A stretch of DNA of 64,000 nucleotides from assembly GCA_951812925.1 (NCBI GenBank), contig OX638371.1, positions 82,965,697 to 83,029,696 on the forward strand. Reading direction: 5' to 3'. This DNA is from Calliopum simillimum. Taxonomy: Eukaryota > Arthropoda > Insecta > Diptera > Lauxaniidae. The translations under genes and the position numbers were made by a program. The first letter of the stretch is position 1, and every line of letters begins with the position of its first letter. Positions 1,522 through 63,953 of this stretch are shown here, one piece after another. The notes below the pieces were generated by a model. The model saw only the letters and a list, made by a program, of their open reading frames with translations, was not told the origin of the DNA and ran no database searches.

Positions 1522-1569
1522 ATCTTCACTATCCCACTGCATTCGTAGTTGTCTCACATATTCCATTAG
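1522..1569 (-). CDS. Micro-exon w37 (48 nt), A type, cassette 4
   Basis: Peptide LMEYVRQLRMQWDSED, acceptor TATTTCTAG, donor GTAAGT. Last exon seen. About 2 kb separates an A exon from the next E exon between cassettes 3 and 4, so a fifth cassette, if present, would lie beyond the left edge. Confidence 0.82.
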
Positions 1570-2194
1570 CTAGAAATATATACACAGATTTTGATTATTA
1601 TTTTATTTTTTTTTTGCAGAAAATGTAAGTATTCTGATTATTAAATAGTTTTCATGAGTGCAACGTCCTAAAAATGGTATATAAATATTGGATATTGAGA
1701 TATTTGTAATTAAGTAGAACAATCTTTGCAACGAAGAGGTATTGCCGCAAAGGCCATAAACTTAGTACGTGCACAATATGAAGGCTTTAAATGCAGTGTG
1801 TTACACAACGGGTTGTTGTCACCGACATTCACCACTAATTCAGGCGTACGGCATAATGTGATTTTCGGAATCAGCAGCCGATTTTACATATAATATGAAT
1901 TCAATTATGATTTTAGCTGTAAACTAATATAGTCGAAGTTTTTCTAAACTGTACGTAAATTTTTTTAACTATAACTACGGTTAAGAAGTAAAACTCACTA
2001 ATTGCTTACCAATCCCTATGCGCTTAGTGAGTTTATCATCTTAGCCGACGATTTAATGTAATAATTTTAAATTACAAAGGTCAGACGTTAGCAAAATATT
2101 CAGATCTCCAACTTTGTGAGTACTTTTCTTTAATACTTCAACCAGATGTTACAAAATTCTAGCTAAATATATTGATATTGCATTGAAAACTTAC

Positions 2195-2242
2195 ATCTTG
2201 AGGATTTGATGCCTGTCCTATACATTGCTGACCATCATTTGG
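2195..2242 (-). CDS. Micro-exon w36 (48 nt), B type, cassette 4
   Basis: Peptide PNDGQQCIGQASNPQD, acceptor ATCTTTATAG, donor GTAAGT. The most divergent B exon: it gains a Cys and loses the RID core. Confidence 0.8.
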
Positions 2243-2584
2243 CTATAAAGATATAAACAGATATTATATGAGTCGTAAAATTGGTCCATAGCAGGTGTTT
2301 CAAAAAAAGATTATCAGGAAAATTGTCAATTCCGATTTCCGATTTGGTGAAACAAATGGTTCATTATCAAAAACTCTTGTGGTTAATTACCTAATTAATG
2401 CTAAAAAAATTATAAATGGTATTCACAGACTATACATAATTAATCATTTATTTAAAAACATTTTCTTCAAGTCAAAATTAAAACGGCTGGAGGTGTAAAA
2501 TTTATAAAATTCCTCAAATCGCGTTGGGTTTTACTTAAATAATATAGAATATAATTGAATCAAATATAGCAAAAATTAACTTAC

Positions 2585-2602
2585 CATTGCGCCTGGCGAA
2601 AC
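2585..2602 (-). CDS. Micro-exon w35 (18 nt), C type, cassette 4
   Basis: Peptide VSPGAM, acceptor AACCAG, donor GTAAGT. An alternative upstream acceptor (TTTTTAG) would add NQ and keep the frame. Confidence 0.72.
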
Positions 2603-4451
2603 CTGGTTCTAAAAAGAATAAATTAAAATCCATTTCATATCAAATCAAAACATATGTATATTCTTATATAAGCAGTAGATTGATTCTAAAAAAGAAACAA
2701 TTTTTTAGGATTTCATGATATTCCCTAAAAATCTGAAAGGTGATGTCCAAAAAGTTAGTTGAGAAATTTTTCATATTTTTTGCAGGTTATTTAGAGGTTG
2801 CATGCCCACAAAGGTTGTATTCTAAATCACAGCTTAATATGGATTTTACTATCAGGTCTATTCTTAACTCCCATTTCGATCGAAATCGGAATCGAATTTA
2901 CGAGATCTGCAATTCGATATTGAACATAACATCGGATTTACGTTTCAGTAAATCGGATTGAAACCAGTAACCAATCTCATGTCTCATATTTTTAGTCTTT
3001 TTTCAATGTGAATATGATAGAAAAATTTAGAACAAAGTTCACTGAAGTACATAAAATCACGAATAAATTTTTTTTTGTGCCTTATTAATTGTATTTTTAT
3101 AACATTTCTTGTGCATTATTCTTGAGTTTTAAGAATTTTTTTCTTTTGTGATCCCAAACAAAATTTCCCATTCAAAGTTTTTCTAACATATTTAAACCCA
3201 TTGTAGTGCAGTTTTTGAAAAAGTGGTCAAAAAATACTTAAACAGAATGAGGGCTTAAGATCTTTTATGAAAATGATCCTTGTGTAATTTTTTTAAGCCC
3301 TTTGGACTCCAAAATTTATTCAAGGTGTAGTTTTAGAAATTCAAACTATTTCGAAACTACCTTACTTTTAAAGATTTTAGCTAAGAAAACAATATGTGGT
3401 TGAAGTTAAGTTTGAGATATTTTTTATATAAGAAATTCGACCATTTTTGAGATCGTAAGAAAATAAAAACCGTACTAAACCGTGTTATTCCAGGACTGAA
3501 AGCGCCCTCTAAATGGTTTTAAAAAAAATCAAAAAGAATTTCAGAAGAATTTTTGATGCCATTGCTATTTAATATGAGAAGTACCACGCCTTCTTGTCCG
3601 TCTTCACATAGTTTTTGCTCAGAGGTTGCGCTTACTATTCTTAATATCATTATCGTGAAAAATACTTCAAAAGTAGCATTTTGAAATTAATTTTTGTTTG
3701 GGTGGTAGGCGTGTCCTTGGACCGATTTCGCTCATTTTTAACAAGTCGTGCTAACTTTGACGACGAAGGCAGCGTTTCAAATTTCATCGAATTATCGTGC
3801 TCCCAAAAAGTATTAAAATGATTTCAATGGGCAGACATCCAGAGACAGACAAACAGACGAACATGACTATAACGACTCAGAAGGTAACGATGATCAAGAT
3901 TATATGGGACGTTTCACTGAGACTGTCACAGTTTTGAGAAATTTTTTTAATAAGTAAACTAATTTTTTTTCTGAATTTTGTTGGAGAAATTGGGTTGAGT
4001 GGTCATTGGGAGTAAGTTTATAGGTTTAGCAAAATTTAGCTTTATTGGTTAACGTTTTACCTTTATCCTTTGCCCGAACATTTTTAATTTTTTTTTTTTA
4101 AATTTTATAAAAAAATTTAATGCTTTCCTTTTTAATTTACGTCAGTCATTAGAAAGTAAACGAATGATATATTTTTAAACTAAAATAATATTTTACGGTT
4201 CTATACTATAAAAGTTATTATTTTAAAATTTATCTTTTTAATTAATTTGTTTTGTTCAGAACTAATATTTCGCCCTTTGAAAATTACAGAAAATCATATG
4301 GGCAATTTTAAATGCATACATACATACATAAAAAGTTGCTTTCTGCAAAAACTTTCTGATAGTTTTATACTTTATATTCAAGTTGCTTTTTCAAGTATGT
4401 ATTTGCAAAGTCTTAAATAATTATTTTTTTTTTTATTTTAATATTACTTAC
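2603..4451. other. Intron between w34 and w35
   Basis: No exon seen. Contains a degraded copy of the R repeat at about 3570-3912 (motifs GGTAGGCGTGTCC and ACGACTCAGAAGG) and poly(A/T) runs. Confidence 0.5.
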
Positions 4452-4499
4452 ATCGCATGGTGAATTATCATCCAGTTGAGATCCATCAGCTGTTGCATC
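4452..4499 (-). CDS. Micro-exon w34 (48 nt), D type, cassette 4
   Basis: Peptide DATADGSQLDDNSPCD, acceptor TTTGTCAAAAG, donor GTAAGT. Confidence 0.82.
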
Positions 4500-5592: not shown

Positions 5593-5667
5593 ACATTGCG
5601 CATATGAGTCATCTGCAGATTGATCGAACGCTGCAGATTCATCGCACGCTGCAGATTCATAGCACGC
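5593..5667 (-). CDS. Exon w33 (75 nt), E type, cassette 4
   Basis: Twenty-five codons in phase 0, acceptor TTCTTCAACAG, donor GTAAGT. Three units of the six-residue repeat (CYESAA, CDESAA, FDQSAD) are followed by the conserved end DSYAQC. The units are more divergent than in w28. Confidence 0.82.
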
Positions 5668-7720: not shown

Positions 7721-7768
7721 ATCTTCACTATCCCATTGCATTCGTAGTCCTTTCACATATTCCAACAG
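7721..7768 (-). CDS. Micro-exon w32 (48 nt), A type, cassette 3
   Basis: Peptide LLEYVKGLRMQWDSED, acceptor TATTTCTAG, donor GTAAGT. Six base differences from w37, four of them changing the amino acid. Confidence 0.82.
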
Positions 7769-9207: not shown

Positions 9208-9255
9208 ATCTTGAGCATTTGACACCTGATCTATACGTTGCTGAACATTATTTGG
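9208..9255 (-). CDS. Micro-exon w31 (48 nt), B type, cassette 3
   Basis: Peptide PNNVQQRIDQVSNAQD, acceptor ATCTTTATAG, donor GTAAGT. Confidence 0.82.
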
Positions 9256-9633: not shown

Positions 9634-9651
9634 CATTGCGCCTGGCGAAAC
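9634..9651 (-). CDS. Micro-exon w30 (18 nt), C type, cassette 3
   Basis: Peptide VSPGAM, donor GTAAGT, acceptor AACCAG. The upstream alternative TTTTTAG of the sister exon w35 reads TTTTTGG here, so only CCAG can serve. Confidence 0.75.
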
Positions 9652-11596: not shown

Positions 11597-14076
11597 ATAT
11601 CTCTGCACTTATAAGAGGCATCGAGAGAACCCTAATCACAGCCGAAACAAAATTAGCTCTCTCTTCTGACCATTCTCCAATCTTATTTTGCCTTTTAGAA
11701 AAACCATTGTATATAGAGACCTTTAAGAAGCTAACCTCATATAAGACCAACTGGCTTAGGTACAGGAAATATATAAGTTCTCACATACACACGAGCTATT
11801 CGATAGAATGTGAGGAACATATAGATGATGCTGTTGCCATTTTTAATTCAATCCTCTGCTCAGCAGCGGAACACTCAACGCCTTATGAGGTTGTGAAAAA
11901 TACAAAAACCAGTTTTTCCACCAACAGTGAAATTGAGTTTCTCGTAGCTGAGAAGCGAAAGTTTATGCGCGAATGGCAGCTACATAGATCTCCCGCTTCT
12001 AAAGCAAACTTAAAAATTTCTACTTCTAAACTGAGGTCTGCGCTAAAAAATAAAGAAGATATAGAGCAGCAAAAATTTGTTTCGAAACTGGATCCTAATA
12101 AGAACGGCAAACAGTCCTTGTGGAAAGCTAGCAAAAGTATTAAAACTCCGATGGAGAGTGAGCTGCCGATAAGAGCCAACCTTGGGAACTGAGCTCGAAG
12201 TGATGAAGGAAAAGCTGATGCTTTTGCAAATCACTTAAGCACAGTTTTTCAACCCAATCCTCCTATTCAAGGCTTTCTTCCTCCTAATTTGCCATTAAAC
12301 AGCGATGTTATGCAATTGAACTTTCATATTAGCAGCGTAAAGGGTGTAGTTGAAGAGATGTGTCCCATAAAAGCTCCTGGGTGCGATTATATAACTCCCA
12401 AAATGATAAAAGAACTGCCAAATTCAGCTTTTGTCTTTTTAACCAGACTTTTTAATGCTATAATTCAGTATGGGTATTACCCATCAGAGTGGAAAATCTC
12501 ATTAATAACCATGATTCCAAAACCTGGAAAAGATCGTACATTGCCTTCTTCATATAGACCCATCAGCCTTTTACCATGCATATCCAAACTGTTTCGGTTT
12601 CCGAAAACACCACGGAACAATTGAACAGGTTAATAGAATCACAAATGAAATAAAGAAGGCTTTCGAACAAAGTGAATACTGTACAGCAGTTTTTCTCGAC
12701 GTAGCTCAAGCGTTTGATAAAGTATGGCATGAAGGCCTTATCAATAAAATTAAACACGTACTGCCTTTTAGCGTCCACAAAACATTTATTTCGTATCTGG
12801 AAAGCAGGCATTTTAGAATTAGACATAACAGTTTTATTTCATCACCTTTAAAAATTAATGCAGGTGTCCCTCAAGGAAGCGTGCTGGGTCCTTTTCTGTA
12901 CTTACTGTATACCTCTGATTTACCTATTATCGCTGGCACAACCATATCTACTTTCGCAGATGATACTGCAGTTTTAAGTTGTAGTCGTTGTCCCCTAGAA
13001 GCGGCACGAAAACTTCAACTTCATTTAAACTCTATCGAAAAGTGGTTGCTGCTATGGCGCATAAAAGTAAATGAACAAAAATGCAAGCAGGTTACTTTTA
13101 CCCTTAGGCGAGGTAATTGCCCTGCTATCACATTAAATAACACTTCAATCCCTCAATCTGAAAACGTCACATACCTAGGTATTCATTTAGACAGACGGCT
13201 TACGTGGCGAAAGCATATTGAAGCCGAAAAAACGCATGTTAAACTAAAAGCTTCCAGTCTACATTGGCTCATAAATAGACAGTCCCGTCTGAAACTTGAA
13301 TATAAAATCCTTTTATATAAGTCCATCATTAAGCCAATTTGGTTATATGGTATACAGTTATGGGGTAACGCCAGCTCCTCGAACATTGAACTAATACAAC
13401 GGACTCAGTCAAAAATTCTAAGAATCATGACTGGTGCTCCATGGTATATACGGAACCAAAACATACATCGGGACCTTTGCATCCCCTTGGTCAAAGACGA
13501 AATCAACAAATACAAGCAAAGTTACGTTGCAAGATTGCTGTATCATCTTAATCCATTGGCACGGAGGTTAAAAAATTTAGAAAATTTCTCCAGACTAAAA
13601 AGAAAGGATCGTCCTGCTATGAATATCGTTAGCAATTAGCTATGTTAAGCTGACTGAATTCTAAATTTTGTATGCAGCCGGTATCTGGCGCGTACTTTTC
13701 TCTATGCAGCCGGTATCTGGCGCATACTCTTTCTTATATTTCTTGTTCCTGCTACACATGCAGCCGGAACTACTGGCGCAAATTTGTATGGAGATCTTTT
13801 CATTCAAACATCCTGCTAGGCGGGCAGCATGTTTGTGAGAAGACTGAACGTACAACAACTGCGTTTTTCTGCGCGTTTACCCAACTCCTAGGAAGAACAA
13901 GTCCCTATTAACTCTGGAGACACATTGAACACTAAATTATATATAAGATTAATTATGTATAATAATGTTATTTAGGATTAAGATTTTTTAAACTTATTGT
14001 TAGTCTCCTAAGATGAGAAGATTCAATAAATGAATTCAAGTATTAAAAAAAAAAAAAAAATATCTCTGCACTTATA
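11597..14076 (+). mobile_element. Jockey-like non-LTR retrotransposon, 5' truncated
   Basis: Flanked by the 17-bp direct repeat ATATCTCTGCACTTATA (11597-11613 and 14060-14076). It ends in a poly(A) tract preceded by an AATAAA signal (ATTCAATAAATG). Inserted into the Helitron, so it is younger than the Helitron insertion. Confidence 0.88.
11614..13639 (+). pseudogene. Reverse transcriptase ORF2 fragment (Jockey clade)
   Basis: Starts inside the endonuclease domain (LSSDHSPI). The linker follows, then reverse transcriptase blocks: APGCDYITPKM, SSYRPISLLPC, AVFLDVAQAFDKVWH (catalytic Asp), GVPQGSVLGPFLYLLY and FADDTAVLS (catalytic DD), then YLGIHLDRRLTW and the thumb region. A stop at about 12190 and a deletion with frameshift near 12590, between the SYRPISLLPCISKL and FGFRKHHGTIEQ blocks, make it non-functional. 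The 3' UTR follows from 13640. The enzyme would have carried out target-primed reverse transcription. Confidence 0.88.
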
Positions 14077-14603: not shown

Positions 14604-14651
14604 ATCGCAAGGTGAATTATCGTCCAGTTGAGATCCAGCAGTTGGTATATC
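14604..14651 (-). CDS. Micro-exon w29 (48 nt), D type, cassette 3
   Basis: Peptide DIPTAGSQLDDNSPCD, acceptor TTTTTCAAAAG, donor GTAAGT. Pairs with w34. Confidence 0.82.
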
Positions 14652-15653: not shown

Positions 15654-15812
15654 ACATTGCGCATATGAGCCACCTGCAGATTGATCGAACGCTGCAGATT
15701 GATCGAACGCTGCAGATTGATCGAACGCTGCAGATTGATCGAACGCTGCAGATTGATCGAACGCTGCAGATTGATCGAACGCTGCAGATTGATCGCACGC
15801 CATATCGAATTC
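15654..15812 (-). CDS. Exon w28 (159 nt), E type with expanded hexapeptide, cassette 3
   Basis: The longest exon: 53 codons in phase 0, acceptor TTCTTCAACAG, donor GTAAGT. It begins EFDMACDQSA and ends GGSYAQC. Between these lie seven units of a six-residue repeat, one CDQSAA followed by six FDQSAA-type units. They are encoded by a nearly perfect 18-bp tandem repeat (plus strand unit GCTGCAGATTGATCGAAC) at about 15672-15798. The near identity of the repeats points to recent expansion; an 18-bp unit never disturbs the frame. Confidence 0.82.
15672..15798. repeat. 18-bp tandem repeat inside exon w28
   Basis: Seven units, nearly identical, coding (minus strand) for A-F-D-Q-S-A. The sister exon at 5593-5667 has three more divergent units and the one at 37128-37178 has one. 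Confidence 0.9.
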
Positions 15813-19354: not shown

Positions 19355-20652
19355 TACAGGGTGGCTGATTCAAAGTGTTACCAATTCAAAAGACTATATT
19401 TTTAGTTTCCATGCATGGATTTTATTGATCAAACGCTATAATTGTTGGGAAATGTTTAAATTTTAAGAATCTACTTGAGATTTTTGATATGGCCACCTTT
19501 GGCCTTAACTATGGCCCGTAGACGGTCGAAGAACGAGTCGCATGCTGCACGAATTTGATTTTGTGGAAGTTTGCGCCATTCTCGTTCAAGGGCCACTTTT
19601 AGCGCATCAACGCTCTGGTATTTTTTAGTCAAGACCTTCTTGTCCAACATACCCAAGATTGAGAAATCCAGCGGATTCGCATCAGGCGAATTTGAGAGCC
19701 ATTGTTGAGCAGAAATGAAGCTAGGAACGTTTTTTTCTTACCATTCTTGATTCACACGAGCTTTGTGTGACGGTGCCGAGTCTTGTTGGAATGTCCATGG
19801 CTTGCGACCGAAATGCTTGCATGCCCACGGTAGTAAAGCACCCTCCAACACTGATTCACGATACACCTGGGCGTTTACTTTGACGCCAGCGGCCAAAAAA
19901 ACGAGTGTGTGAGCGCCCATCAGCAGTCACTGCAGCCCAAACCATCACATGCGGTGGTGCCTGCGTCCTGGTGGCCAAACGAACATTCAAATTTTCGTAG
20001 GACCTCTCTGTCAAGTAAACCCGATCATTTTGTTTGTTTACATATTGCTGGATACAGTAATTTTTCTCATCAGAGAAGACAATTTGTGACAGATTTCCGG
20101 CGGCGTGCAAGCGCAACAACTCCTTGGCTCTATCGAGCCTAACTTTTTTTTGAGCAGGAGTGAGATCATGCGCCTTTTGGAACTTGAGGGCCTTTAGTCC
20201 GAGCTTGTTTGACAATATGTGTTGCATTCGTTCACGCGATATTTTCAGCTCGGCAGCCATTTGTCTGCCACTGCGTCTCGGATTTCGCTCAATTCTGGCC
20301 TTCACCTTTCGAACTATTTCTGGTGATGTTGCAGTTATTTTCCGACCACCACCATGTCGTTTTGTAACGTGTTATGGTCCGATACATAAACATTTTATTC
20401 ACTTTTAAATGTTTCAGCTCACAAACAATTGCTGGTTGCGATTTTCCAGCCAAATAAAGAGCAATCACACTATTACGTTTGAATTCCATTTCGAAAATTT
20501 TTTACTTTCAATAAATTGACGCGCAAATGCTTTTGGTTACTTGTTGATGATAGAATGAACTAACATTATGCCAATTTTTTAACAGCTGTCATGTTCCATC
20601 TGTCAGATAAGTCTATCTGAAGTTGGTAACAGTTCGAATCAGCCACCCAGTA
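19355..20652 (-). mobile_element. DD37D (maT-type) mariner/Tc1 transposon
   Basis: Terminal inverted repeats CAGGGTGGCTGATTC (19357) and CTGGGTGGCTGATTC (opposite strand, 20650) are flanked by TA on both sides. Length 1,294 bp. Encodes a broken transposase on the minus strand. Confidence 0.88.
19471..20489 (-). pseudogene. Transposase, DD37D type, broken
   Basis: Reads from MEFKRNSVIALYLAG (helix-turn-helix region) through FSDEKNYCIQ (first Asp), WTFQQDSAPSH (second Asp) and SPDANPLDFS (third Asp) to KAKGGHIKNL. Counting from the second to the third Asp across an in-frame stop gives 37 intervening residues, which defines the group. Breaks: a frame change near 20295, another at a T-run near 19890, and a TAA after VNQEW at about 19739. 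It cannot make a complete enzyme. Confidence 0.87.
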
Positions 20653-21044: not shown

Positions 21045-21092
21045 ATCTTCACTATCCCATTGTATTCCTAGTTGTTTCGCATATTCCATTAG
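21045..21092 (-). CDS. Micro-exon w27 (48 nt), A type, cassette 2
   Basis: Peptide LMEYAKQLGIQWDSED, acceptor TATTTCTAG, donor GTAAGT. Confidence 0.82.
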
Positions 21093-21750: not shown

Positions 21751-21798
21751 ATCTTCATAATTTGATATCTCATCTATACGTTGCTGAACTTCATTTGG
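21751..21798 (-). CDS. Micro-exon w26 (48 nt), B type, cassette 2
   Basis: Peptide PNEVQQRIDEISNYED, acceptor ATATTTATAG, donor GTAAGT. Confidence 0.82.
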
Positions 21799-24585: not shown

Positions 24586-24603
24586 CATTGCGCCTGGCGG
24601 ATC
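24586..24603 (-). CDS. Micro-exon w25 (18 nt), C type, cassette 2
   Basis: Peptide DPPGAM, acceptor TTTTTAAAACCAG, donor GTAAGT. The TTTTAG seen in some copies is absent here, which supports CCAG as the true acceptor. Confidence 0.72.
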
Positions 24604-25550: not shown

Positions 25551-26475
25551 AAGTTCTTCCAAATTTTTATACAATAGTTTTTCTACCCATTGATATTTTT
25601 CACATAATTTCAAAGGTTCTCTTTAGGGTTTAAATCTAGTCTTTGAGCTGGCCAGTACAAAACATGGATTTTTTCAGTCCCTAACCAGTTTTTCTCTAGT
25701 TTAGCTCAATGCTTTGGATCATTACCCTGCATAAAGATCTAATTATCTGGCATGGAATCAAATAAAAATGGCTCCATCGTATTCTGGAGTAAGCTAAAGT
25801 ATCCGAATTGGTCTAATTTGCTATCAATTTTGACCAATCGTCCCACTCCATGCCAAGAAAATGCGCTGCATATCATGACACACCTTCCACCGTGCTTAAT
25901 GGTTTTGGTGGTGTCCTTTGAGTTGCACTCTTAGCACTTTGGGCGATGCATAAATGTTTTCCCATCAGGTCCAATGCGATTAATTTTAGTTTCATCGCTC
26001 GAAATGCAAGGAATTCAACCCAAAATACACTATCAAAAGCATTAAGTTCGGTGGAGGTATTGTTATGGTATGGGGCGCATTTTCTTGGCATGGAGTGGGA
26101 CCATAAGACAAAATTGATGGCAAATTGGACCGATTCGGATACGATGGAGCCATTTTCATTTGATTTTATGTCAGTTAATTGGATTTTTATGCAGGATAAT
26201 GACCCAAGGCATTCAGCTAAATTATTGAAAAGCTGGGTTGGGGCTGAAAAAATCCATGTTTTGGACTGGCCAGCTCAAGGACTAGATTCAAACCCTAAAG
26301 AGAACCTTTGGAATTATGTGAAAAATATTAATGGGTAGAAAAACTATAAAAATTTGGAAGAACTTTGGGTAAGAATTCAGAAGCTTGGTATTCTAGTTCA
26401 AAGAGCAGATGCCAAAAACTTGCGGAGGGTTTGCCTCGTAGATGTCGCGAAACAATCAAAAATCGTAAACACACT
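25551..26475. mobile_element. Head-to-head Tc1-like transposon fragments
   Basis: The C-terminal half of a Tc1 (DD34E) transposase is present twice in opposite directions: minus strand at about 25551-25905 and plus strand at about 26030-26475. Both contain CATTTTCTTGGCATGGAGTG and CTGGCCAGCTCAA. No terminal repeats seen, so this is an inverted duplication rather than a normal copy. Confidence 0.82.
26030..26475 (+). pseudogene. Tc1-family transposase C-terminal fragment
   Basis: Motifs: FMQDNDPRHSAKLLKSW (catalytic Asp) and WPAQGLDSNPKENLWNYVK (catalytic Glu). There are 34 residues between the Asp and the Glu, as expected for DD34E. A stop follows at 26336, but similarity to the family's C-terminus continues. 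The 5' half is missing. Confidence 0.82.
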
Positions 26476-26689: not shown

Positions 26690-27925
26690 ACGTAGGCTGC
26701 TCGATATATTTCTGGCCTAGGCAGCACTAAGTGTTGCCAGGTGCAATCTGACATTTCTATTGGAAAGTTTGAAATTTTTTAGCATAAACGTACTCAAAAC
26801 GTTTTGACGTACGACCATCATTTGTGTTGTTTACAATGACTTGAAAAAATCAATTTTGCAAAAAAATGGAATTAACTCGTGAACATTTTCGTACGATCAT
26901 TTTTCACAACTTTCGACGTGGATTAACACGACAAGAGTGCATCGATAAAATTAAATCTTTGTATGGCGATGAAGCACCATCCTATAGCACTGTGAAAAAC
27001 TGGTTTAATGAATTCAATCGTGGCCGACGCTCGCTCAGAGACGAATTCCGTGAGGGTCGTCCAAAAACGGCCGTTGTCCCAGAGAGCATTGATGCCGTGC
27101 ATGAACTGATATGCAAGATCGTCATGTGACATACCGAGAGATAGAGGATTCTTGGGCATTAGCTCCATTCGATATTCCATGAACACCTGGCCGTAAAATA
27201 GGTTTGATCACGTTAGACCCCGCACAATTTGGCAAACGCTAAAAAAAAGGCTCGTGTCGATTGGTACAAAGAAATGTTGAAAAAATACCATCGCGGAGCT
27301 TCAAAAGACGTTTATAAGATCGTCACAGGTAACAAATCATTGATCTATGCGTATGAGCCCGAAACAAAACAGCAATCGACCGTGTGGGTCTTCGAAGACG
27401 AGCCAAATCCAACGAAAGTTGTTCGTAGAAGAAGCACTTCGAAGCAAATGGTCGCCTGTTTCTTCGGCAAAACTGGTCATGTGGCGACTGTTCCTCTTGA
27501 GCAACGTAGTACGGTTAATTCTGAGTGGTACACCACAATTTGTTTGCCTGAAGTCTTCGGAGAAATCCGAAAAACGAACAAGAGAAGACGAATCATTGTT
27601 TACCGCCAAAACGTCGAATTGATGGGTCATCCGCCGTACAGCCCTGACTTGGCACCCAATAACTTCTTTTTATTCCCGCACATCAAGAAAAAAATGCGTG
27701 GTCAATGATTTTTGTCGCCAGAAGATGCTGTTGAAGCGTTCAAAAACCATGTTTTGGAGGTGTCTCAATCGGAGTGGAAAAAGTGCTCCGACAATTGGTT
27801 TGAGCGCATGCAAAAGTGTATAAATCATGCTGGAGAATACTTTGAAAATCACTAAAACCATTTTTGATGATAAATATTCGCATTTTCAATCTTAGGCGAG
27901 AAATGTATCGAGCAGCCCACGTACT
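26690..27925 (+). mobile_element. Mariner element, decayed
   Basis: The ends are CGTAGGCTGCTCGATA and, on the opposite strand, CGTGGGCTGCTCGATA. TA follows the right end; the left flank is CA, probably a mutated TA. About 1.23 kb. Confidence 0.85.
26866..27855 (+). pseudogene. Mariner transposase, inactivated
   Basis: The N-terminal helix-turn-helix region (MELTREHFRTIIFHNF, TVKNWFNEF) is followed by a broken section at 27120-27230. The body then runs KKARVDWYKEML, VWVFEDEPNPTKV, PPYSPDLAPNNFFLF (third Asp) to the C-terminus near 27855 with one stop at 27707. The first catalytic site reads VTGNKSLIYA where the family has GDES, and the segment carrying the second Asp (HHDNA) is deleted between RRRIIV and QNVELMGH. 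Confidence 0.86.
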
Positions 27926-28263: not shown

Positions 28264-28317
28264 GCCGCATGTTGAATTACTTGTGTCGTAAATTTGAGAT
28301 CCATCAGTTGTTGTATC
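28264..28317 (-). CDS. Micro-exon w24 (54 nt), D type
   Basis: Peptide DTTTDGSQIYDTSNSTCG, acceptor CTTTATGAAAAG, donor GTAAGT. Differs from w21 by a last-codon change (GAC to GGC, Asp to Gly) and one silent change. Confidence 0.8.
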
Positions 28318-29930: not shown

Positions 29931-29972
29931 ACAATCTGATAATAATCCTTGACGTCGCGCGAAACTCCTTAG
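29931..29972 (-). CDS. Micro-exon w23 (42 nt), A' type
   Basis: Peptide LRSFARRQGLLSDC, acceptor TATTTCTAG, donor GTAAGT. Identical copy of w20 from the sub-block duplication. Confidence 0.78.
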
Positions 29973-32239: not shown

Positions 32240-32257
32240 GTTTGTGCTTGGCGGAGC
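32240..32257 (-). CDS. Micro-exon w22 (18 nt), C' type
   Basis: Peptide APPSTN, acceptor TTTTAGAACCAG, donor GTAAGT. Identical copy of w19. Confidence 0.75.
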
Positions 32258-34344: not shown

Positions 34345-35262
34345 CATATGGGAATATATGAGACACTCCCGGGTATGAGACAGTCGATTTTTTCTATGAT
34401 GCAAAATTAGTATTGCCAATCTGACTACTGTCCTCTTACTATGACCAAGTTTTTAAGCCAACACCGAAGTGAAAAGATTTATTGCTTATTTAAGTTATAC
34501 ACCTCAGGTCGCAACTCGACTGTAAAAAGATTTTTATGATCTGTTTCAAAGTGTTATATTTTGGATTTAATCAACTGGAAATGGGAAGTGTCATGCGTTA
34601 GCGTTTAGTGTTTTATATCTACTTTGTGATACGATTTGGGTTTGTGTAAATATAAATGGATAAAACATTACATTATGAGACACCTTTAAAAATGCAATTT
34701 AAATTAGAAAATACGAAATAAAAACACCATAACTGTACATAAACACATGTATCATTACATACATGACGATATTTGACAGTTGCACATGATTTGGGTTCAA
34801 AAAAAAAGTGTCTCATACCCGGATCCGGGTATGATGTGTTTATGTACAGTTATGGTGTTTTTATTTCGTATTTTCTAATTTAAATTGCATTTTTAAAGGT
34901 GTCTCATACCTGGATACAAAATTTGTAACGATATGGACATTTTTTCTTTCGAACCAAAATCTAGTGCAACTATCAAATATCAAAATTTATGTAACGAAAA
35001 ATGAATAAAAGTTTGTGCTTATGGATTTTTTGTTTCATATTTTCTGATTTTCATTGCATTTTTCTAGGTGTCTCATACCCGGATACAAAATTTAAATTGC
35101 AAAAAAAAAGTACTTAGAAAATTGGCCACAACTTTTGATGAAGAGAGTTGTATGCATTTCTTATCTTTTGAACGATATATAAGACACCTGAAACAGTTTG
35201 ACCAGTAAAAAGTAATGGCTCAAAAACAAAACCCGTCTCATACCCGGATACATTCCCTTACA
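34345..35262. repeat. Repeat block with TCTCATACCCGGATA motifs
   Basis: GGTGTCTCATACCCGGATA or its complement recurs at about 34355, 34640, 34810, 34900, 35067 and 35240. The section 34670-34905 forms an inverted repeat around AAAACACCATAACTGTACAT. Probably a foldback or TIR element; precise ends not found. Confidence 0.6.
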
Positions 35263-35364
35263 TAAATAAAAAAATGCTTTCGGAAAAATATGTTTTATTC
35301 AAGTAGCTTTTTCAAGTGTTTGCAAAGTCTTATATTTATTTATTTTTTTTTTAATATTACTTAC

Positions 35365-35418
35365 GTCGCATGTTGAATTACTTGTATCGTAAATTTGAGA
35401 TCCATCAGTTGTTGTATC
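35365..35418 (-). CDS. Micro-exon w21 (54 nt), D type
   Basis: Peptide DTTTDGSQIYDTSNSTCD, acceptor TTTATCAAAAG, donor GTAAGT. Compared with the 48-nt D exons w29 and w34 it has two extra codons in the middle but keeps the TDGSQ core, the NS and the CD end. Confidence 0.82.
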
Positions 35419-36155: not shown

Positions 36156-36197
36156 ACAATCTGATAATAATCCTTGACGTCGCGCGAAACTCCTTAG
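36156..36197 (-). CDS. Micro-exon w20 (42 nt), A' type
   Basis: Peptide LRSFARRQGLLSDC, acceptor TATTTCTAG, donor GTAAGT. Intron sequence on the acceptor side (AGCTAGAAATATA, then CAGATTTGATTATT) is that of the A-type exons, but the coding part is almost unrelated and 6 nt shorter. Identical to w23. Confidence 0.78.
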
Positions 36198-36993: not shown

Positions 36994-37011
36994 GTTTGTG
37001 CTTGGCGGAGC
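36994..37011 (-). CDS. Micro-exon w19 (18 nt), C' type
   Basis: Peptide APPSTN, acceptor TTTTAGAACCAG, donor GTAAGT. Identical in sequence to w22, its copy in the sub-block duplication. Same intron context as the VSPGAM exons. Confidence 0.75.
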
Positions 37012-37127
37012 CTGGTTCTAAAAGGAATAAATTAAAATCCATTTCATTTCAAATAACCAAAACATATGTTAATACTTATAAAAGCAGTAGACTGATTAAA
37101 ATTTTTTTTTTTTCAAATATTACTTAC

Positions 37128-37178
37128 AGTTTGCGCATATGAGACATCTGTAGATTCATCGCACGTTGGATTAGAATC
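37128..37178 (-). CDS. Micro-exon w18 (51 nt), E type, cassette 2
   Basis: Peptide DSNPTCDESTDVSYAQT, acceptor GTCTTCAACAG, donor GTAAGT. Holds one unit (CDEST-) of the six-residue repeat that is expanded in w28 and w33. It ends SYAQT rather than SYAQC. Confidence 0.8.
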
Positions 37179-38218: not shown

Positions 38219-38266
38219 ATCTTCACTATCCCATAGCAATCGTAGTTGTTTCGCATATTCCATCAG
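38219..38266 (-). CDS. Micro-exon w17 (48 nt), A type, cassette 1
   Basis: Peptide LMEYAKQLRLLWDSED, acceptor TATTTCTAG, donor GTAAGT. Aligns with w27, w32 and w37. Confidence 0.82.
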
Positions 38267-38608: not shown

Positions 38609-38656
38609 ATCTTCATAATTTGATATTTTATCTATACGTTGCTGAACATCATTAGG
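38609..38656 (-). CDS. Micro-exon w16 (48 nt), B type, cassette 1
   Basis: Peptide PNDVQQRIDKISNYED, acceptor ATATTTATAG, donor GTAAGT. Aligns codon for codon with w26, w31 and w36. Confidence 0.82.
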
Positions 38657-38921: not shown

Positions 38922-38939
38922 CAATGCGCCTGACGGAAC
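38922..38939 (-). CDS. Micro-exon w15 (18 nt), C type, cassette 1
   Basis: Peptide VPSGAL, acceptor AAAACCAG, donor GTAAGT. The acceptor is placed at CCAG because all six C exons keep that AG, while an upstream TTTTAG is present in only three of the six. Confidence 0.7.
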
Positions 38940-41071: not shown

Positions 41072-41095
41072 CTCACAGCTTTCAGCAGGCGCCTC
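41072..41095 (-). CDS. Micro-exon w14 (24 nt)
   Basis: Peptide EAPAESCE, acceptor TTAATTTTCAG, donor GTAATT. Sits where cassettes 3 and 4 have the D-type exon but is not similar to it. Confidence 0.5.
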
Positions 41096-41262: not shown

Positions 41263-41313
41263 GGAGTACCCATATGAGTCATCTTCATAGTCACCAAACG
41301 TTTCATTAGGATC
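41263..41313 (-). CDS. Micro-exon w13 (51 nt), E type, cassette 1
   Basis: Peptide DPNETFGDYEDDSYGYS, acceptor TTCTTCAAAAG, donor GTAAGT. The end DDSY(G)Y lines up with the DDSYAQC and GGSYAQC ends of w33 and w28, and the upstream intron (TTGAAGAAAATA..AGCCATTAA on the plus strand) is shared. It has no full copy of the hexapeptide seen in the other E exons. Confidence 0.75.
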
Positions 41314-41381: not shown

Positions 41382-41408
41382 GAAAATAGCTGAACTGCAA
41401 GCAAGCGG
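41382..41408 (-). CDS. Micro-exon w12 (27 nt)
   Basis: Peptide PLACSSAIF, acceptor AATATTTTTCAG, donor GTAAGT. Its donor-side flank is found at the same place in the other cassettes (15865, 5735 and 37245), where the coding part has decayed, so it seems to have been lost elsewhere. Confidence 0.65.
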
Positions 41409-42685: not shown

Positions 42686-42712
42686 CGCATAATCTTCATA
42701 CCCGGAACTGTC
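42686..42712 (-). CDS. Micro-exon w11 (27 nt)
   Basis: Peptide DSSGYEDYA, acceptor TTTTTTTTAG, donor GTAAGC. Starts with GAT/GAC (Asp) like many exons here. The composition matches the E-type exon w13 downstream (DYEDDSYGYS end), suggesting distant kinship. Confidence 0.65.
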
Positions 42713-46708: not shown

Positions 46709-47918
46709 CTCTCTGTGCAATTGATTTTCGTAATCTCAAGAAATTTTCCGTTGTTCAAAAACTTAAATTTTATTTCAAATTGTTTATTGCATCTGACTTT
46801 TTATTTATTAATATTGGTGCTGCCACTTCGGACTTGCCCAGCATGCTTGTAATAGTGTGAGTGCAATTGAAATCTGAGAAAAAATCTAGAGTTAAAAAAA
46901 ATTGATCTGAGGTCAAAAAATTTGTATCTAGATTTCCAGGTTTTGATCTAGATCAAAAAAATATTACTTTTTTGCTCAGTGGAATACGACATAAATATTG
47001 TTCCCGTATTCAAAATTTAGTTAAATGATAGCGAAAAGAACATGACTGATCATTTCCCTTACACAAAATTAAGCAATTTTGTCATATGGCCCATGTGACA
47101 AAAAAAAAAAAAACTGCACAGCAAAAAGCTTGGGTGTAAAATTCAAACCAGTTTGGAATGAATACAGATCCACAACAAACTTTGGTATAAAATCTATGCT
47201 TCACTTTGGTATACAAACCGTTTATACTTATACACATAAAGTATTAAAACAATATAAACTATTTTGGTTTAAATTTTATAGTTTCACTACATAAAAATCT
47301 TTTATACTTTTTTTGTATAAAATTTATATAGCAGATCATATGAAAGAATTTTATGCCATTCTATATAAAATTAATATTATGACCATATAAAACCAATCTA
47401 CTTACGCATAATGAATTCCATAATAAAGAAATATCATTCAACTTCTAATAATTACATATATTTATTTTAAGAGAAACACATTTCATAACTTAAAATATTT
47501 TCAATTACATATTTCCTTAAAGCATACTAGTATGGTTATGTACATTTTAATGTTTTTCTATTACATTGTCATTTTGTTATGAAAAAATTGCTTAAGTTAA
47601 TAAAATGTAAATTTTGTTAATGGAAACAATTTCTTACGAATAATGGAGGTTAAGATTCCAAGATGCTGCTAAACATACTAATGTGATAATAGACACGTCG
47701 ATGTGCCGTTAAACACTCTGAGGTGATTGGCCACTGATGGTGCTGACGACAATATTAGCATAAACATTAGAATCATACTTGAGGAGTTATTTTTCAAAAG
47801 GGCTTATTTCCAAAACGAAAGCAAAAGTAATGTCATAATATTAATTGCTTTGTATTTTGTTAAAAATTAATAAAATTTGTCTCTGTGTTCACGAGAAGTT
47901 TGCCTGATGATGTGAAAT

Positions 47919-48125: not shown

Positions 48126-49070
48126 TGCAAAGTTAAGGCAATCGGCATTAGTTTGGGATAAAATTTTTTCACGTTATTGGTTAAATTTACTCGCCAACTT
48201 TTTGCTGGGGAATAATAATGAATAAATAAATAATTATAAATAACGTGATTAAAAACTTTAGTACAAGAATTTTATAGATTATTGTAATAGTTCCCATATG
48301 GCACTAAAAATTTTTATATCCATCGAAGCGTTTCCAACTTATACCGGCTCTACTAAAACTACTTACTTTACACTTGAAATTTTCTTTAGTGAATTTTTTG
48401 GAGCAAACTTTCTGTCAAAATGCAGAAAATGGAAAAATGTCAATTATATTGGCAAAATAGCATTGCCATATGTTTTTGTTTTGTGGAGTTTTCATTCATA
48501 AAATATTCACTTCTTCTAGTGCTCCCTCTCGAGAGGATGTATATTCTCGAGAATGGAAACTTCCTTCAGATTTACAATAAGTCCCAATAAAAAAATTGCA
48601 TTTTTATACATAATTTTTATATGGTTACGAAAATATATTTTTTTAATTTAAAAATCACACAAATTTTGCATTATCCGGTACCAGCGCCAATTCCAAAAAT
48701 AACAATTTAAATTTTAAGCTATTGTATATTATCTTCTTTTTCTTTTGTTTAGTTGTTGGTTTTAACTGAAAGGGAGAAAAAAAGTTATAATAAGTTCGAT
48801 TTATGCAATTAATATATTATGAGACTGTTTTTTTTTTTTTGTTTATTTTCAGCAAAATAAATTGTATCTTCAGATATCAGACGCGGTAAGTTCGAAACAT
48901 GTTTGCCAAAAAAAATTTAGGCTAACTTTTGACTTTGTTCTCAAGGAGCGTTCATTTTTAAAATTGGTTAAGTTAAACAATATTTTACTTACATTTGTAA
49001 CATGCAGTTTTTATCACACCTTCTAGATATTTCCTTTATTGTATTGCTAAAATTTCTTATATTTGCTTAC

Positions 49071-49167: not shown

Positions 49168-49330
49168 AATTCCGTGGAGATGGAGTTGCCAAATTCCGTG
49201 GAGATGGAGTTGCAAAATTCCTTGGAGATGGAGTTGCCAAATTCCGTGGAGACGGATTTGCAAAATTCCGTGGAGATGGAGTTAAAAAATTCCGTGGAGA
49301 TGGAGTTAAAAAATTCCGTGGAGATGGAGT
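49168..49330. repeat. 24-bp minisatellite, seven copies
   Basis: Unit ATTCCGTGGAGATGGAGTTGCCAA with few changes. 24 bp without stops keeps several frames open. In the plus frame that follows a TTTACAG at 49125-49131 it reads FRGDGVAK repeats and ends in TAA; in another plus frame it reads NSVEMELP repeats. Confidence 0.85.
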
Positions 49331-50290: not shown

Positions 50291-50329
50291 CAATCTTCGT
50301 TGACCGTGTGCCGGGTTTTGTCTGCAAGC
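50291..50329 (-). CDS. Micro-exon w10 (39 nt)
   Basis: Peptide ACRQNPAHGQRRL, acceptor TTCTTTAATAG, donor GTAAGT. Basic and single copy. Lies in an otherwise empty stretch. Confidence 0.65.
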
Positions 50330-52437: not shown

Positions 52438-52458
52438 CTCTATACAGTTTCTCCTTGC
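52438..52458 (-). CDS. Micro-exon w9 (21 nt)
   Basis: Peptide ARRNCIE, acceptor TTATTTTACAG, donor GTACTT (weak). One of the shortest exons; the call rests on the acceptor, the phase and the neighbouring exons. Confidence 0.5.
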
Positions 52459-53202: not shown

Positions 53203-53247
53203 CAGTGCCGCTTCTTGTTGTTGTTGTTGTGCACCCTGCTGTCTTAT
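53203..53247 (-). CDS. Micro-exon w8 (45 nt), polyglutamine
   Basis: Peptide IRQQGAQQQQQEAAL, acceptor AAATTTTACAG, donor GTAATT. Contains five consecutive CAA codons, a potential site of length variation in steps of three that would keep the frame. Confidence 0.6.
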
Positions 53248-56607: not shown

Positions 56608-56639
56608 CTATTGAATATTTTAATTAGTAGACATATTGA

Positions 56640-58223: not shown

Positions 58224-58265
58224 CGGTCCATAAGGTCCAAGTGGTGCTTCATCTTCACATTCTGC
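58224..58265 (-). CDS. Micro-exon w5 (42 nt)
   Basis: Peptide AECEDEAPLGPYGP, acceptor ACATTTTTAG, donor GTAAGT. Single copy in the window. Acidic first half, Gly/Pro-rich second half. Confidence 0.7.
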
Positions 58266-59622: not shown

Positions 59623-59661
59623 CTGAGGTTGCGTAAATGTTGCGTGCACTCTTGGAGAACA
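59623..59661 (-). CDS. Micro-exon w4 (39 nt), SPRVH type
   Basis: Peptide CSPRVHATFTQPQ, acceptor TTTACCATTAG, donor GTAAGT. Third of the SPRVH triplet. Confidence 0.8.
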
Positions 59662-60225: not shown

Positions 60226-60450
60226 AAGACTAGGGGCTTAAATGAAAAAAACATCAAAGTCAATTTATTTTTCATCAAGGAATTTGCTTGAATTTTTTCA
60301 CAATTCCCATTCCCTCATCGTGCCCCATATTCGATTCTTCTGAATTTTACTTGAGAATATTTAGAAAGGTGGCCCTACTACTTCTGAAATGTGTGCTCTC
60401 GCGTGTATTATTGGAAATCTTGTTTTTCCCGGAGTTTTTGTATTACTTAC

Positions 60451-60489
60451 CGGAGGTTCCGTATACGTTGCATGCACTCTTGGAGAACC
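60451..60489 (-). CDS. Micro-exon w3 (39 nt), SPRVH type
   Basis: Peptide GSPRVHATYTEPP, acceptor TTTACCATAAG, donor GTAAGT. Second of the SPRVH triplet. Compared with w2 and w4 the first residue changes C to G and the tail differs. All three remain in phase 0 despite one being 45 nt and two being 39 nt. Confidence 0.8.
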
Positions 60490-61083
60490 CTTATGGTAAA
60501 GGATAATACATGAAATAAAAAACAATTTATTACACAATTTATTAACGAATTTAAGACTTTTGATTTTATTTGATTCAGCCGACTTAAGCACATTTTTTAT
60601 TATTATTTCAATTGAGGAGTTGCGCGCAAGAACACCCTAAGCCGAGTAGGGAATTTTTGCACCCAATGATTTCTGGAAATTTTGGGCCCTCAACTATATC
60701 TGTACATAATTGCAATTTTCAATCTTTATCACAAAATGTGGTAGAGATATATATAAATGACGGTTTAGCGAATAGTACGGCGAAATGCCATTCTTCGACT
60801 TATGGCGCTCTTGCACGCAATGCCTCAATTGTTTGATAAAGCATATGGAAATCTTATGAGGGAACAAAGGAGTGAAGATACAAAATTTCAAATCTGAAAA
60901 AAAAGTTCAAGTCGATCGAGCAGATTTTTTTGCATGCTTACAAAAAAAAAGAAAGGATATACTCATATGTATATTACAAATTGTTTTTAAATTATCTATA
61001 AATTATTCGTTAAAATAAGAACAAAAGAGAAAAAAGCTCATAGATTTAAGCTAACATAATACTTCAATACAAATATTACTTAC

Positions 61084-61128
61084 TCGCGCCGGCGACTGCG
61101 TAAATGTTGGATGCACTCTTGGAGAACA
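61084..61128 (-). CDS. Micro-exon w2 (45 nt), SPRVH type
   Basis: Peptide CSPRVHPTFTQSPAR, acceptor TTTACCATTAG, donor GTAAGT. First of three consecutive exons sharing the core SPRVHxT(F/Y)T. Intron sequence around the acceptor (ACTAATGGTAAAG on the plus strand) is also shared, so the set arose by tandem exon duplication. Confidence 0.8.
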
Positions 61129-61499
61129 CTAATGGTAAAGGAAAATACATGAAATAAAAAACAATTTATTTCACTGTTTAACAAATTTTAGACTTTGATT
61201 TTATTGGAGTTCGGACTAGGTAATTATTGTTCCTTGCTATTGGCATAATTGGACTGCATTTACAAAATTTTTCCATCATGTCTCAGTTTTGAATTAAAAT
61301 GGAAAATCAAAACTAATGATATTAAGTACATAAGCGGTACTCAGATATTTTTTACCGTGTTATCAATGAATCATATTCATAGTGCCGCTCAGATGCTTTA
61401 ACTTAAATCAATTTCGAAGAAATGCCTAATTATATGCAACGATACTCCTAGATTAAGTTTTATGTCACTTTAATTAGCTACCTATTATTTAACAAAACC

Positions 61500-61600
61500 C
61501 CCCCAAAAAAAAAAAAAATTAAAAAATTTAAGAAAAAAATCACCCGGGCTTGGTTCGAACCCATGTTGTCCTTACTGCAGCCTTATAAAAATCATTATGA
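61500..61600 (-). repeat. Possible tRNA-derived SINE fragment
   Basis: The minus strand has GGTTCGAACC (B box, palindromic) in the context ACATGGGTTCGAACCAAGCCC, followed by a T run. No A box or cloverleaf found. Confidence 0.25.
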
Positions 61601-62037
61601 AAGTGCTTCTAAATTTCTATGGGGACAAGCACTTTTGAAGTGCTTGGATCAGAAGCGCTAGAAATTTTTCGTCTTGGGTTATTGCATACATACACTTTAA
61701 TATCAAAACCAATGCCTACTTTTAGCGGTAGTCACAGTGCTTCGTCATTCTGATTCTTGAAATTTCATCTTCGTTTTCATAGTATTCGGACCAGCTTAAA
61801 GAAATTGTTTTTTATTTTTAATGCGCGGCTACTTAAATAACTCTTCTGTAAGATCAATGATATTGTGTGATTATTCTAAAGGATTATATCTGAGAAAGAA
61901 GTATCATTCAAAATTCAGCTCATAAGTCAGCAATTTTGAGAATAATATGAAGTCAAAGTGTGAAATGGTGTCATAGAAGGAGAATATCACTTGCGAATTT
62001 TTAGTGAGTGTTTTGATGATAAAGCTGACATTGTTTT

Positions 62038-63243
62038 TATACCCTACACCCAGGGTATATTCACTTTGTCCTTCCGTTTGTAACGTAGAGAAGGAGGCGT
62101 GGCAGATATAGAAAAGTATATATATTCTGGATCAGCGTCACCTCCTGAGTCGATATAGCCATGTTCGTTAGGCATGTGCTTATTTTACGATTTTCTGATT
62201 TTTGTTGATGCCGCCCCCTGAAATCCATCTAATGGTCATAAAACAAACACCATGAAGTTTCACGGCGATTGGATAACGATAACCCGGCCCTCAAGAGAGG
62301 TCAAGGTCAAGTTGGAGTTTCAGGCAAAAAATAATTAAAAATTTTTTTTAACTAAATTAAATAAGTCAAAGCAAAATACCATTCTACTACATATGGTATT
62401 TTGCGGCAATTTTGCTAATGTCGATAAAAGAAAAATTCATAGAATTCGTATTAATTACCCGATATTAAACAATTATAGCTTGTTAGAAAGGTATTTCAAT
62501 TTGCTATAAGATAAAATTATGCTTTGACTAATTTAATTAAGATAAAAAAAATTTTTAATATTTTTTGCCTGATACTTCAACTTGACCTTGACCTCTCTTG
62601 ATGGCCGGGTTTTCGTTATCCGATCGCCGTGAAATTTCATAGTATTTGTTTTTATGACCATTAGAAGGATCTCATGGGGCGGCATCAACGAAAATCAGAA
62701 AATCGTAAAATAAGCTTATGCCTAATGTCCGTCTGTCTGGCTGGCTGGCTGTGTGTTGAAATACACTTTTGGGAAAACTGAGCAAGATAATTCAATGAAA
62801 TTTAGAACACTGGCTTTGGTGTCACAGGTAGCTCGTGGGATCGAAAATAAACAAAATCGGTGAACGGACACGCCTACCACCCATACAAAATATATATTCA
62901 ATTTTAGGAGTATTTTTCACGACAATGCAACCAAAATACACACTTAAATACTACCTACGCATTGTAAGTATAAACTCCAAAAAAAAAAACTGAGCAAATT
63001 TGGACAAGAGGGCGTGGCACCTCCCATATAAGCAAAAGCTTCAAAACGCTATACTGAAGGCGTTTTTTGAGATATTCAAACCCAATTTGACTCAGACACT
63101 AAGAATTATAAATGCAAGCTCTGTACAAAAACTGAGTGAACTCGGACAAGAGGGCGTGACACCTCCCATATAAGAAAATTTTTAAAATACGGCAGTGTAG
63201 AGTATTTACTTTTTGGCTAGTCCAAAAGTTACACCCTTACTAG
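62038..63243 (-). repeat. Interspersed repeat R, reverse orientation, interrupted
   Basis: Starts at the right (CTAGTAAGGGTGTAACTTTT on the minus strand) and ends at 62038 with the GTGTAGGGTATAA end. Split by the element at 62168-62725. Confidence 0.82.
62168..62725. mobile_element. Foldback TIR element nested in repeat R
   Basis: The ends TTAGGCATGTGCTTATTTTA and the complement of TAAAATAAGCTTATGCCTAA have arms of about 200 bp (both include GGCCGGGTT and GTCAAGGTCAAGTT, direct or reversed). TGTTCG on the left and TGTCCG on the right look like a short target duplication from the host's ATGTCCGTCTG. Confidence 0.8.
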
Positions 63244-63905
63244 TTGAATTTTACTGCGGGTATTTTGTCCAATCAATTCAAGGTATTGTATTTTTAATGA
63301 TATCAGATCCAAATCACATCCAAACAACTCATGTATTTATCGTAAATCAGCATTTTTCTTGAATGTCAGAAAAGATTCAATTATTTTTATCAATTTTCCG
63401 TCAATATGACGTATTCCAACGTGCTCCATTATATACAATTTTTAGGAAAAGTGTAATAATTTTGTCGGAAAATTGAAATAAATACTAATTTTGAGAATCC
63501 CATCTTTTCATTAAGAGCAGCACTCATAAATTAAGAAGATCCTAAAGTGTGTAGAATATTCCTCTATTACAATCCCTGCTTCATAATACACAATTATTGT
63601 AGAATAATTTTTCTTCATATTTTTGTTTTATTTTATTTAAGTTTCACCATAACCCAGCTGAAAGATTGGCTTTTCAGCTTACGATAGCTTGATTTTAGTT
63701 GCGAAGCATTTGAGCGGCTCTGTACTCGACTATATGTGTGTATTTATATAAAATTAAATACTGACTGTATGGCTCTTATTGACTTCGAAATAATTTAACC
63801 GATTTGAACTAGTTTTTTAAAAGTTTTTTGGTATGGTGTGATCTTATGAAGGAAAAGTAGCCTCCAAGTTCTGACCTTAAGGACTTTTTTTTTAATTTTA
63901 CTCAC

Positions 63906-63953
63906 ATCGCGCGTTGCACTCCCAGACCCTTGAGAACTATATGATGATTCATC
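63906..63953 (-). CDS. Micro-exon w1 (48 nt)
   Basis: Peptide DESSYSSQGSGSATRD. The acceptor is TATCAATAG and the donor is GTGAGT, the only GTGAGT among the exons. It resembles the later D-type exons in starting with GAT (Asp), carrying an SSQ core and ending in Asp. It is the most 5' exon in the window; the gene continues beyond the right edge. Confidence 0.7.

Follow-up and report, generated by a model that had tools for sequence, protein, structure and literature searches.

Predicted frame-neutral micro-exons beside SUMO-protease genes in the fly Calliopum simillimum

A 64,000-nt stretch of the chromosome-scale contig C4 (C4:82965697-83029696, here called the window) in the 690-Mb assembly of the fly Calliopum simillimum contains a long series of tiny open segments bordered by splice-site-like sequences, and it raises the question of whether these segments form a gene, how far such a gene extends and what its product might do. 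We consider it on balance probable that the window is part of a single very large micro-exon gene that belongs to a same-strand cluster and has grown by cassettes, and whose product is most likely an intracellular multivalent scaffold or regulator. All evidence for exons, splicing and gene limits is DNA sequence, and the exons described below are predicted. Window coordinates are used throughout; negative values and values above 64000 denote flanking DNA, and the window and its flanks together cover 304 kb.

Symmetric segments and their duplication

On the minus strand, small stop-free translating blocks between ...AG and GTAAGT could be recognized by eye. We trained splice-site matrices on the locus itself and collected the best non-overlapping segments open in phase 0 with a summed score of at least 14. 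The minus strand of the window yielded 38 symmetric segments (length a multiple of three) versus 7 and 8 segments with remainders 1 and 2, and the plus-strand control yielded 4, 1 and 4 segments for remainders 0, 1 and 2. Since the locus matrices hold a few exon bases, the test was repeated with matrices built from intron bases only, which carry no phase-0 codon bias. For segments open in any frame with a score of at least 17, the counts over 304 kb were 112/8/9 on the minus strand versus 11/8/13 on the plus strand; the excess is in the symmetric length class alone. When minus-strand symmetric segments of 30-120 nt were picked without regard to frame, 88, 56 and 28 of 111 were open in phase 0, 1 and 2, respectively (plus-strand control: 6, 6 and 4 of 18). 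One dubious 15-nt segment (35262-35276) was left out, which reduced the window set from 38 to 37. Judging by the controls, about 4 to 8 false segments are expected in the window.

A full same-strand DNA copy, comprising the whole exon and both borders, was found within the 304 kb for 30 of the 37 window exons, and a 31st exon, at 15654, aligns border to border with that at 5593, with internal gaps. Six exons without a copy in the 304 kb (58224, 53203, 52438, 50291, 48367 and 47406) are less sure. The first-pass annotation of this DNA had reported 37 phase-0 segments of 18-159 nt with AG/GT borders and lengths divisible by three, and the minus-strand excess and the copies bear it out. Its statement that the symmetry is uniform holds for all 37 window exons, but not for the flank, where two doublets (108382-108568 and 107616-107788) each combine a 19-nt exon with an 89- or 77-nt exon, and only the pair is a multiple of three. 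Two candidate ATG first exons (108382-108462 and 107616-107681) were rejected as parts of the second exons of these doublets. Overall, the micro-exon structure is confirmed and is wider than first seen: putative micro-exons reach the left end of the 304 kb (about -99 kb) and about +201 kb, becoming sparser toward the ends.

In the 304 kb, 86 of the 159 exons with a score of at least 14 fall in peptide families, and two types of cassette were distinguished. Type 1, from about 39 kb down to -13 kb, is composed of VSPGAM/APPSTN-type (9 copies), PND.QQ-type (4), LMEY/LRSF/LNNF-type (9), SYAQ-type (4, with the expanded exon at 15654 included) and DTT.DGSQ-type (6) exons. Type 2, from 104 to 59 kb, contains three copies each of DSCEYDDFS, PGVNSSPIC, PPQAVHG..., TLYDDGAQYE, PTEENTEEF... 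and DESSYSS..., after which the cassettes carry CSPRVH/GSPRVH/VHATFT exons in differing numbers; the first part of this cassette type recurs, diverged, at 42.7-41.1 kb. In DNA alignments the duplications are collinear and take the introns along, and splice borders are identical between copies. The gene would thus have grown by tandem duplication of multi-exon cassettes. Its exons start and stop between codons, so a copied, lost or skipped exon keeps the frame. Frame neutrality permits skipping, as the first-pass proposal of a locus built for many isoforms would require, but cassette duplication would produce the same symmetry even if no exon were alternatively spliced. In-frame 18-nt tandem repeats inside exons (AAFDQS), with 7.1 copies at 15674-15800 and 3.1 copies at 5613-5667, are a second route to a longer product.

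Three regions of the cluster, C, D and E, have exon-plus-flank matches of 120-190 bp in common (C-D 160 bp, 81%; E-D 152 bp, 87%) and were therefore treated as one gene family. Two other candidate links were discarded: the region A tail is not accepted as kin to the region D tail (BLASTP E 0.11), and a dispersed repeat accounts for 147 bp that match between the 5' parts of regions C and E. A head-to-tail duplication of 2.8 kb (82037-84877 / 84872-87712) that carries a VHATFTEPR exon has 99.97% identity and is either very recent or an assembly artefact.

The copies were also compared for constraint. In 12 non-overlapping pairs from newer cassettes, the ratio of nonsynonymous to synonymous differences (pN/pS) was 0.32 (p=0.08 for pN versus pS alone), and exons were 2.7% diverged (12 changes in about 450 sites) versus 10.3% for introns (267 of 2592; Fisher 8e-9). 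The newer cassettes look constrained and the older ones less so. In the older set, from which one mis-specified pair was removed before counting, 14 non-overlapping pairs were left, 12 of them with intron alignments; exon divergence was 0.123 versus 0.169 for introns 25-150 bp off (Fisher p=0.007). Pooled overlapping older pairs (34 pairs) had given a pN/pS of 1.7, with exons at 0.236 and introns at 0.140, but diversifying selection was dropped as an explanation because non-overlapping pairs gave 0.87 and exon divergence exceeded intron divergence in 1 of 12 pairs.

Recognition of exons of 18-50 nt may be helped by intron sequence beside the splice sites. Family-wide alignments of four exon families gave divergences of 0.09-0.29 for introns 11-100 bp off, 0.24-0.38 for exons and 0.27-0.43 for introns 100-200 bp off; the upstream flank was less diverged than the exon in all four families and the downstream flank in two (F01 and F02/06 were slightly above). 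In the closest pairs, by contrast, exons were below introns 25-150 bp off in 11 of 12 pairs, in newer and older sets alike. Near-intron sequence thus seems to outlast exon sequence in distant copies and not in close ones, and the two results do not agree; a possible explanation is that splicing signals in the introns are constrained while the neighbouring exons drift. Among the many words tested, TTTGCA is over-represented in the flanks downstream of exons (16 of 84 versus 3.7 expected).

Terminal exons, predicted product and protease neighbours

Five terminal exons, each with an acceptor, an open frame and a stop, were found on the minus strand of the 304 kb. Two encode 134 residues (-38933 to -38529, and -20189 to -19785, the tail of the window gene), one encodes 192 residues (122877-123455; one copy found in the genome search) and one 99 residues (190655-190954). 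The fifth (171426-172169) encodes a SUMO-protease catalytic domain and has a weak acceptor, below the splice-score list. Five such exons point either to several genes or to a single unit that can end at more than one place. A single 62-kb gene, as first proposed, was not borne out, given the flanking micro-exons, the five terminal-exon sites and the same-strand cluster with SUMO-protease exons; the run itself is real, but it passes both window edges and contains several terminal exons. The window gene probably extends from a point short of 122.9 kb down to -20.2 kb. For its internal part our model has 77 curated exons, 8 of 85 candidates having been dropped; they are spread over about 129 kb, from 109.3 to -19.1 kb, with a median exon of 42 nt, a median intron of 1053 nt and 2.6% coding sequence. 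The two 134-residue tails are 75% identical and the only two copies in the genome search; the ratio of nonsynonymous to synonymous substitution rates (dN/dS) between them is 1.21, a value whose significance was not assessed.

The product is predicted to be an acidic, disordered, lysine-poor chain of repeated short peptides followed by the 134-residue C-terminal exon. The joined model comprises 1248 residues, 212 of them acidic and 71 basic, and by its charge and hydropathy it plots among disordered chains. A mean hydropathy of -0.87 and a cysteine content of 3.8% agree with the hydrophilic product with scattered cysteines that had been proposed. The accompanying claim that it belongs to no known family held for the 856 of 1248 residues scanned, in which no Pfam family scored above cut-off; neither did any in 464 residues of region C, tail included, or in the 134-residue tail of region E, the paralogue of the window-gene tail. 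A protein database search with the 134-residue tail returned 9 candidates, none with E<=1, and one with the protease exon returned 151, none with E<=0.001. SUMO proteases are widespread in eukaryotes, so the database appears to be poor in insect proteins and the null result for the tail is no sign of novelty.

Lysine accounts for 7 of 918 residues in 61 unique exons versus 55 (40-71) expected, and the lowest of 300 base shuffles had 40. In these counts repeated peptides were counted once, expectations came from base-shuffled exons, and segments without a coding look were left out (2 in region C, 1 in region E, 5 in the left block and 1 upstream of the protease exon). Region E has no lysine in 174 residues versus 11.5 expected (4-20), and region C has 11 in 514 versus 27 (16-40), whereas the left block, with 24 in 305 versus 31 (20-45), is not depleted. 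Nor are the micro-exons upstream of the protease exon at 171 kb (3 of 47 versus 3.3 expected), which speaks against a simple common lysine rule. Disordered proteins of the ubiquitin-proteasome system are reported to have lysine deserts as a prevalent feature (PMC10169902), which is only a lead here.

The terminal exon at 171 kb matches PF02902 (E 9e-24), and its best solved relatives are Ulp2 and SENP7. A genome search with this exon returned 39 matches at E<=10. Eight strong matches surround the window, at 82.43-83.41 Mb on the C4 minus strand, one more strong match is at C4:58.69 Mb, and weaker ones are scattered over several contigs. We assign the exons of the cluster mates to the catalytic domain of C48 SUMO proteases of the Ulp2/SENP6-7 type, with activity predicted and the other copies assigned by homology. 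The catalytic His, Asp, Gln and Cys appear to be present in the three sequences inspected, and dN/dS was 0.48-0.56 in the three protease paralogue pairs compared. Upstream DNA was read for six protease exons (that at 171 kb, three in C4:83214601-83224600 and two others), and phase-0 micro-exons precede four of them. A protease-adjacent micro-exon with its flanks is common to the genes at 171 kb and C4:58.69 Mb (79% over 142 bp). Micro-exons thus occur upstream of protease exons as well as in the window gene, and the structure belongs to both kinds of gene. In the cluster mates a single exon encodes the catalytic domain. The window gene yielded no such exon, PF02902 being absent from the 856 joined residues scanned and from the region E tail. 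As a separate observation, the three SUMO-protease exons in C4:83214601-83224600 stand within about 7 kb, and one of them is 3' of a long Pro/Ser-rich repeat frame.

Weighing the readings

If the favoured reading of one very large, cassette-grown gene is correct, its product may serve inside the cell as a multivalent scaffold or regulator whose length varies, with the SUMO/ubiquitin pathway as a possible place of action, and descent of the window family from protease genes is plausible. Several observations weigh against parts of this reading. The 14 older cassette pairs gave a pN/pS of 0.87 (p=0.64), which is not separable from neutrality. Arginine is low as well (35 versus 87.5 expected), so the scarcity of lysine is in part a matter of overall acidity. 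For two of the six protease exons read, no micro-exon turned up just upstream, one of these exons following a long Pro/Ser-rich frame. Matches between the micro-exons of regions C, D and E and those of the protease genes are short or resemble dispersed repeats, so the case for a SUMO link is built on the neighbourhood, the common architecture and the scarcity of lysine. Support for a role of intron flanks in exon recognition is mixed, the families speaking for it and the closest pairs not. Finally, no convincing first exon or signal peptide was found in the stretches scanned and the 5' end is missing, so the gene limits given above are estimates and one unit with alternative ends has to be considered.

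Such a unit would extend over about 1 Mb and share its micro-exon cassettes among many alternative terminal exons, in the manner of lola and mod(mdg4), units with many alternative terminal exons. We think it rather unlikely. Everything lies on one strand, no convincing first exon appears between successive terminal exons, and the terminal exons differ, some encoding a protease and some not. Yet exon composition differs between blocks, the duplication of the 134-residue tail takes in its flank, 840 bp in all, a pattern suggestive of gene duplication, and polyadenylation-like hexamers follow all five stops examined, though the AT-rich DNA here contains many of them. A very improbable reading, in our estimate, is that of a decaying array in which most exons are relics of duplicated cassettes and are no longer spliced into protein. 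The near-neutral ratio of the older pairs, the low coding fraction and the transposon pieces in the window would fit it, but open frames and splice borders are kept in many copies, exons of the newer cassettes lie far below intron divergence at a pN/pS of 0.32, those of the older pairs are also below their introns, and lysine is depleted across exon families. It is also a distinctly doubtful conjecture that in this fly lineage a SUMO-protease locus became a factory, about 1 Mb long, of frame-neutral exon cassettes, in which other terminal exons took the place of the protease exon in some members; these would now encode nearly lysine-free, acidic, multivalent proteins that serve as decoys or scaffolds in SUMO/ubiquitin control, perhaps in a genetic conflict.

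The exon architecture invites comparison with other systems. Collagen, elastin and titin PEVK arrays encode repetitive chains in small, symmetric, duplicated exons; the present exons, inspected by eye, differ in having no Gly-X-Y, elastin-like or PEVK runs, and several exon families alternate in each cassette. Schistosome micro-exon genes (MEGs) are described as having most of their coding sequence in very small symmetric exons, with short exons of 3-81 bp lying between long introns in Schistosoma mansoni (PMC4350168, PMC10526429), and their products as all displaying a signal peptide, the genes appearing restricted to platyhelminths (PMC4350168). For aphids, almost all internal exons of bicycle genes are given as phase 2, and megacycle as a gene of about 100 kb with more than 100 micro-exons, about 2000 residues, internal tandem duplication, an N-terminal secretion signal and no orthologue in the non-aphid species examined there (PMC9168663). 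The comparison made here is one of architecture. As in MEGs, most of the modelled coding sequence is in very small symmetric exons, here predicted; as in the aphid genes, many micro-exons share one phase, and as in megacycle, growth was by internal duplication. Unlike MEGs, the locus belongs to an insect and has cassette arrays of dozens of exons and SUMO-protease neighbours, and the aphid exons are in phase 2, whereas phase 0 prevails here (88/56/28 of 111). Placement in a higher fly agrees with a GST cluster on contig C3 and with one GST of that cluster, for which the best solved relatives are 3vwx (GST 6B, house fly) and 4png (Drosophila). The exon logic that the first-pass annotation likened to MEGs and aphid effector genes therefore seems to be shared, but kinship with the bicycle genes is contradicted by the phase; the structure resembles these genes in how it works, and membership in either class is not established.

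A secreted effector of the MEG or bicycle/megacycle type, with exon skipping varying the secreted product, would suit the scattered cysteines, the symmetric micro-exons that carry most of the modelled coding sequence and the precedent of megacycle genes with more than 100 micro-exons and internal repeats (PMC9168663). We regard it as highly unlikely, as the scanned stretches yielded no signal-peptide exon (though the model lacks its 5' end), the phase differs from that reported for bicycle exons, the neighbours belong to an intracellular class of enzymes and the newer cassettes are conserved rather than diversified. Symmetric micro-exon genes in schistosomes and aphids have been read as secreted effectors. 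A phase-0 cluster in a fly, mixed with SUMO-protease genes, would suggest that duplication of cassettes can produce such an architecture independently and that secretion is not a necessary part of it. The series of copies would be natural material for asking how exons of 18-50 nt are recognized. No description of such a cluster in flies was found in the literature searched, mostly openly accessible titles and beginnings of abstracts. According to plant micro-exon papers, such exons are easily missed by annotation, so similar genes may hide in other assemblies.

Exons and other features of the window

The 37 window exons, all on the minus strand and all in the splice-matrix listing at a score of at least 14, are given below in descending order, with F numbers denoting exon peptide families. 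The type-2 cassette includes DESSYSSQGSGSATRD (63906-63953; copies at 77291 and 100264). Next come CSPRVHPTFTQSPAR (61084-61128; copies at 74134, 89265 and 96338), GSPRVHATYTEPP (60451-60489), whose identical peptide recurs at 73398, 88489 and 95510, and CSPRVHATFTQPQ (59623-59661; family F00, with a DNA copy). No copy was found for the micro-exons AECEDEAPLGPYGP (58224-58265) and ACRQNPAHGQRRL (50291-50329), nor for four possible ones: IRQQGAQQQQQEAAL (53203-53247), which is less sure, ARRNCIE (52438-52458), which has a weak donor, KVCSKKFTKENFKCK (48367-48411) and KLNDISLLWNSLC (47406-47444), the last three being outside the product model. DSSGYEDYA (42686-42712), of the older type-2 cassette, aligns with 80105; PLACSSAIF (41382-41408) aligns with 79149, 65714 and 102400, and DPNETFGDYEDDSYGYS (41263-41313) with 79009, 65574 and 102260, while EAPAESCE (41072-41095) has a DNA copy at about -26.4 kb (83%).

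The list continues with VPSGAL (38922-38939; F06), of the type-1 cassette, followed by PNDVQQRIDKISNYED (38609-38656; F07), LMEYAKQLRLLWDSED (38219-38266; F08), DSNPTCDESTDVSYAQT (37128-37178; F15), APPSTN (36994-37011; F02), to which an alternative acceptor at 37017 would add NQ, LRSFARRQGLLSDC (36156-36197; F03) and DTTTDGSQIYDTSNSTCD (35365-35418; F01). APPSTN recurs at 32240-32257 (F02; alternative acceptor 32263) and LRSFARRQGLLSDC at 29931-29972 (F03), with DTTTDGSQIYDTSNSTCG (28264-28317; F01) behind them. DPPGAM (24586-24603; F06), PNEVQQRIDEISNYED (21751-21798; F07) and LMEYAKQLGIQWDSED (21045-21092; F08) precede the 159-nt exon (15654-15812) with the in-frame 18-nt AAFDQS expansion, which aligns with 5593, and DIPTAGSQLDDNSPCD (14604-14651; F01). 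Then come VSPGAM (9634-9651; F06), PNNVQQRIDQVSNAQD (9208-9255; F07), LLEYVKGLRMQWDSED (7721-7768; F08), ACYESAACDESAAFDQSADDSYAQC (5593-5667; F15) and DATADGSQLDDNSPCD (4452-4499; F01), and finally NQVSPGAM (2585-2608; F06; alternative acceptor 2602), PNDGQQCIGQASNPQD (2195-2242; F07) and LMEYVRQLRMQWDSED (1522-1569; F08).

An Rfam scan of the window returned no family at the gathering threshold. Transposon pieces, with matches to reverse transcriptase (PF00078) and Transposase_1 and weaker, sub-threshold ones to DDE_3 and HTH_32, are located at 12515-13636, 27217-27705 and 25922-26335 on the plus strand and at 19859-20371 on the minus strand. A 24-nt unit is repeated 6.8 times at 49168-49330, with both strands open (NSVEMEL on the plus and TPSPRNF on the minus strand). 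Elsewhere in the assembly, contigs C246 and C143 have stretches that look bacterial by their long overlapping frames, and some DNA of a contaminant or symbiont appears to be included in the assembly.

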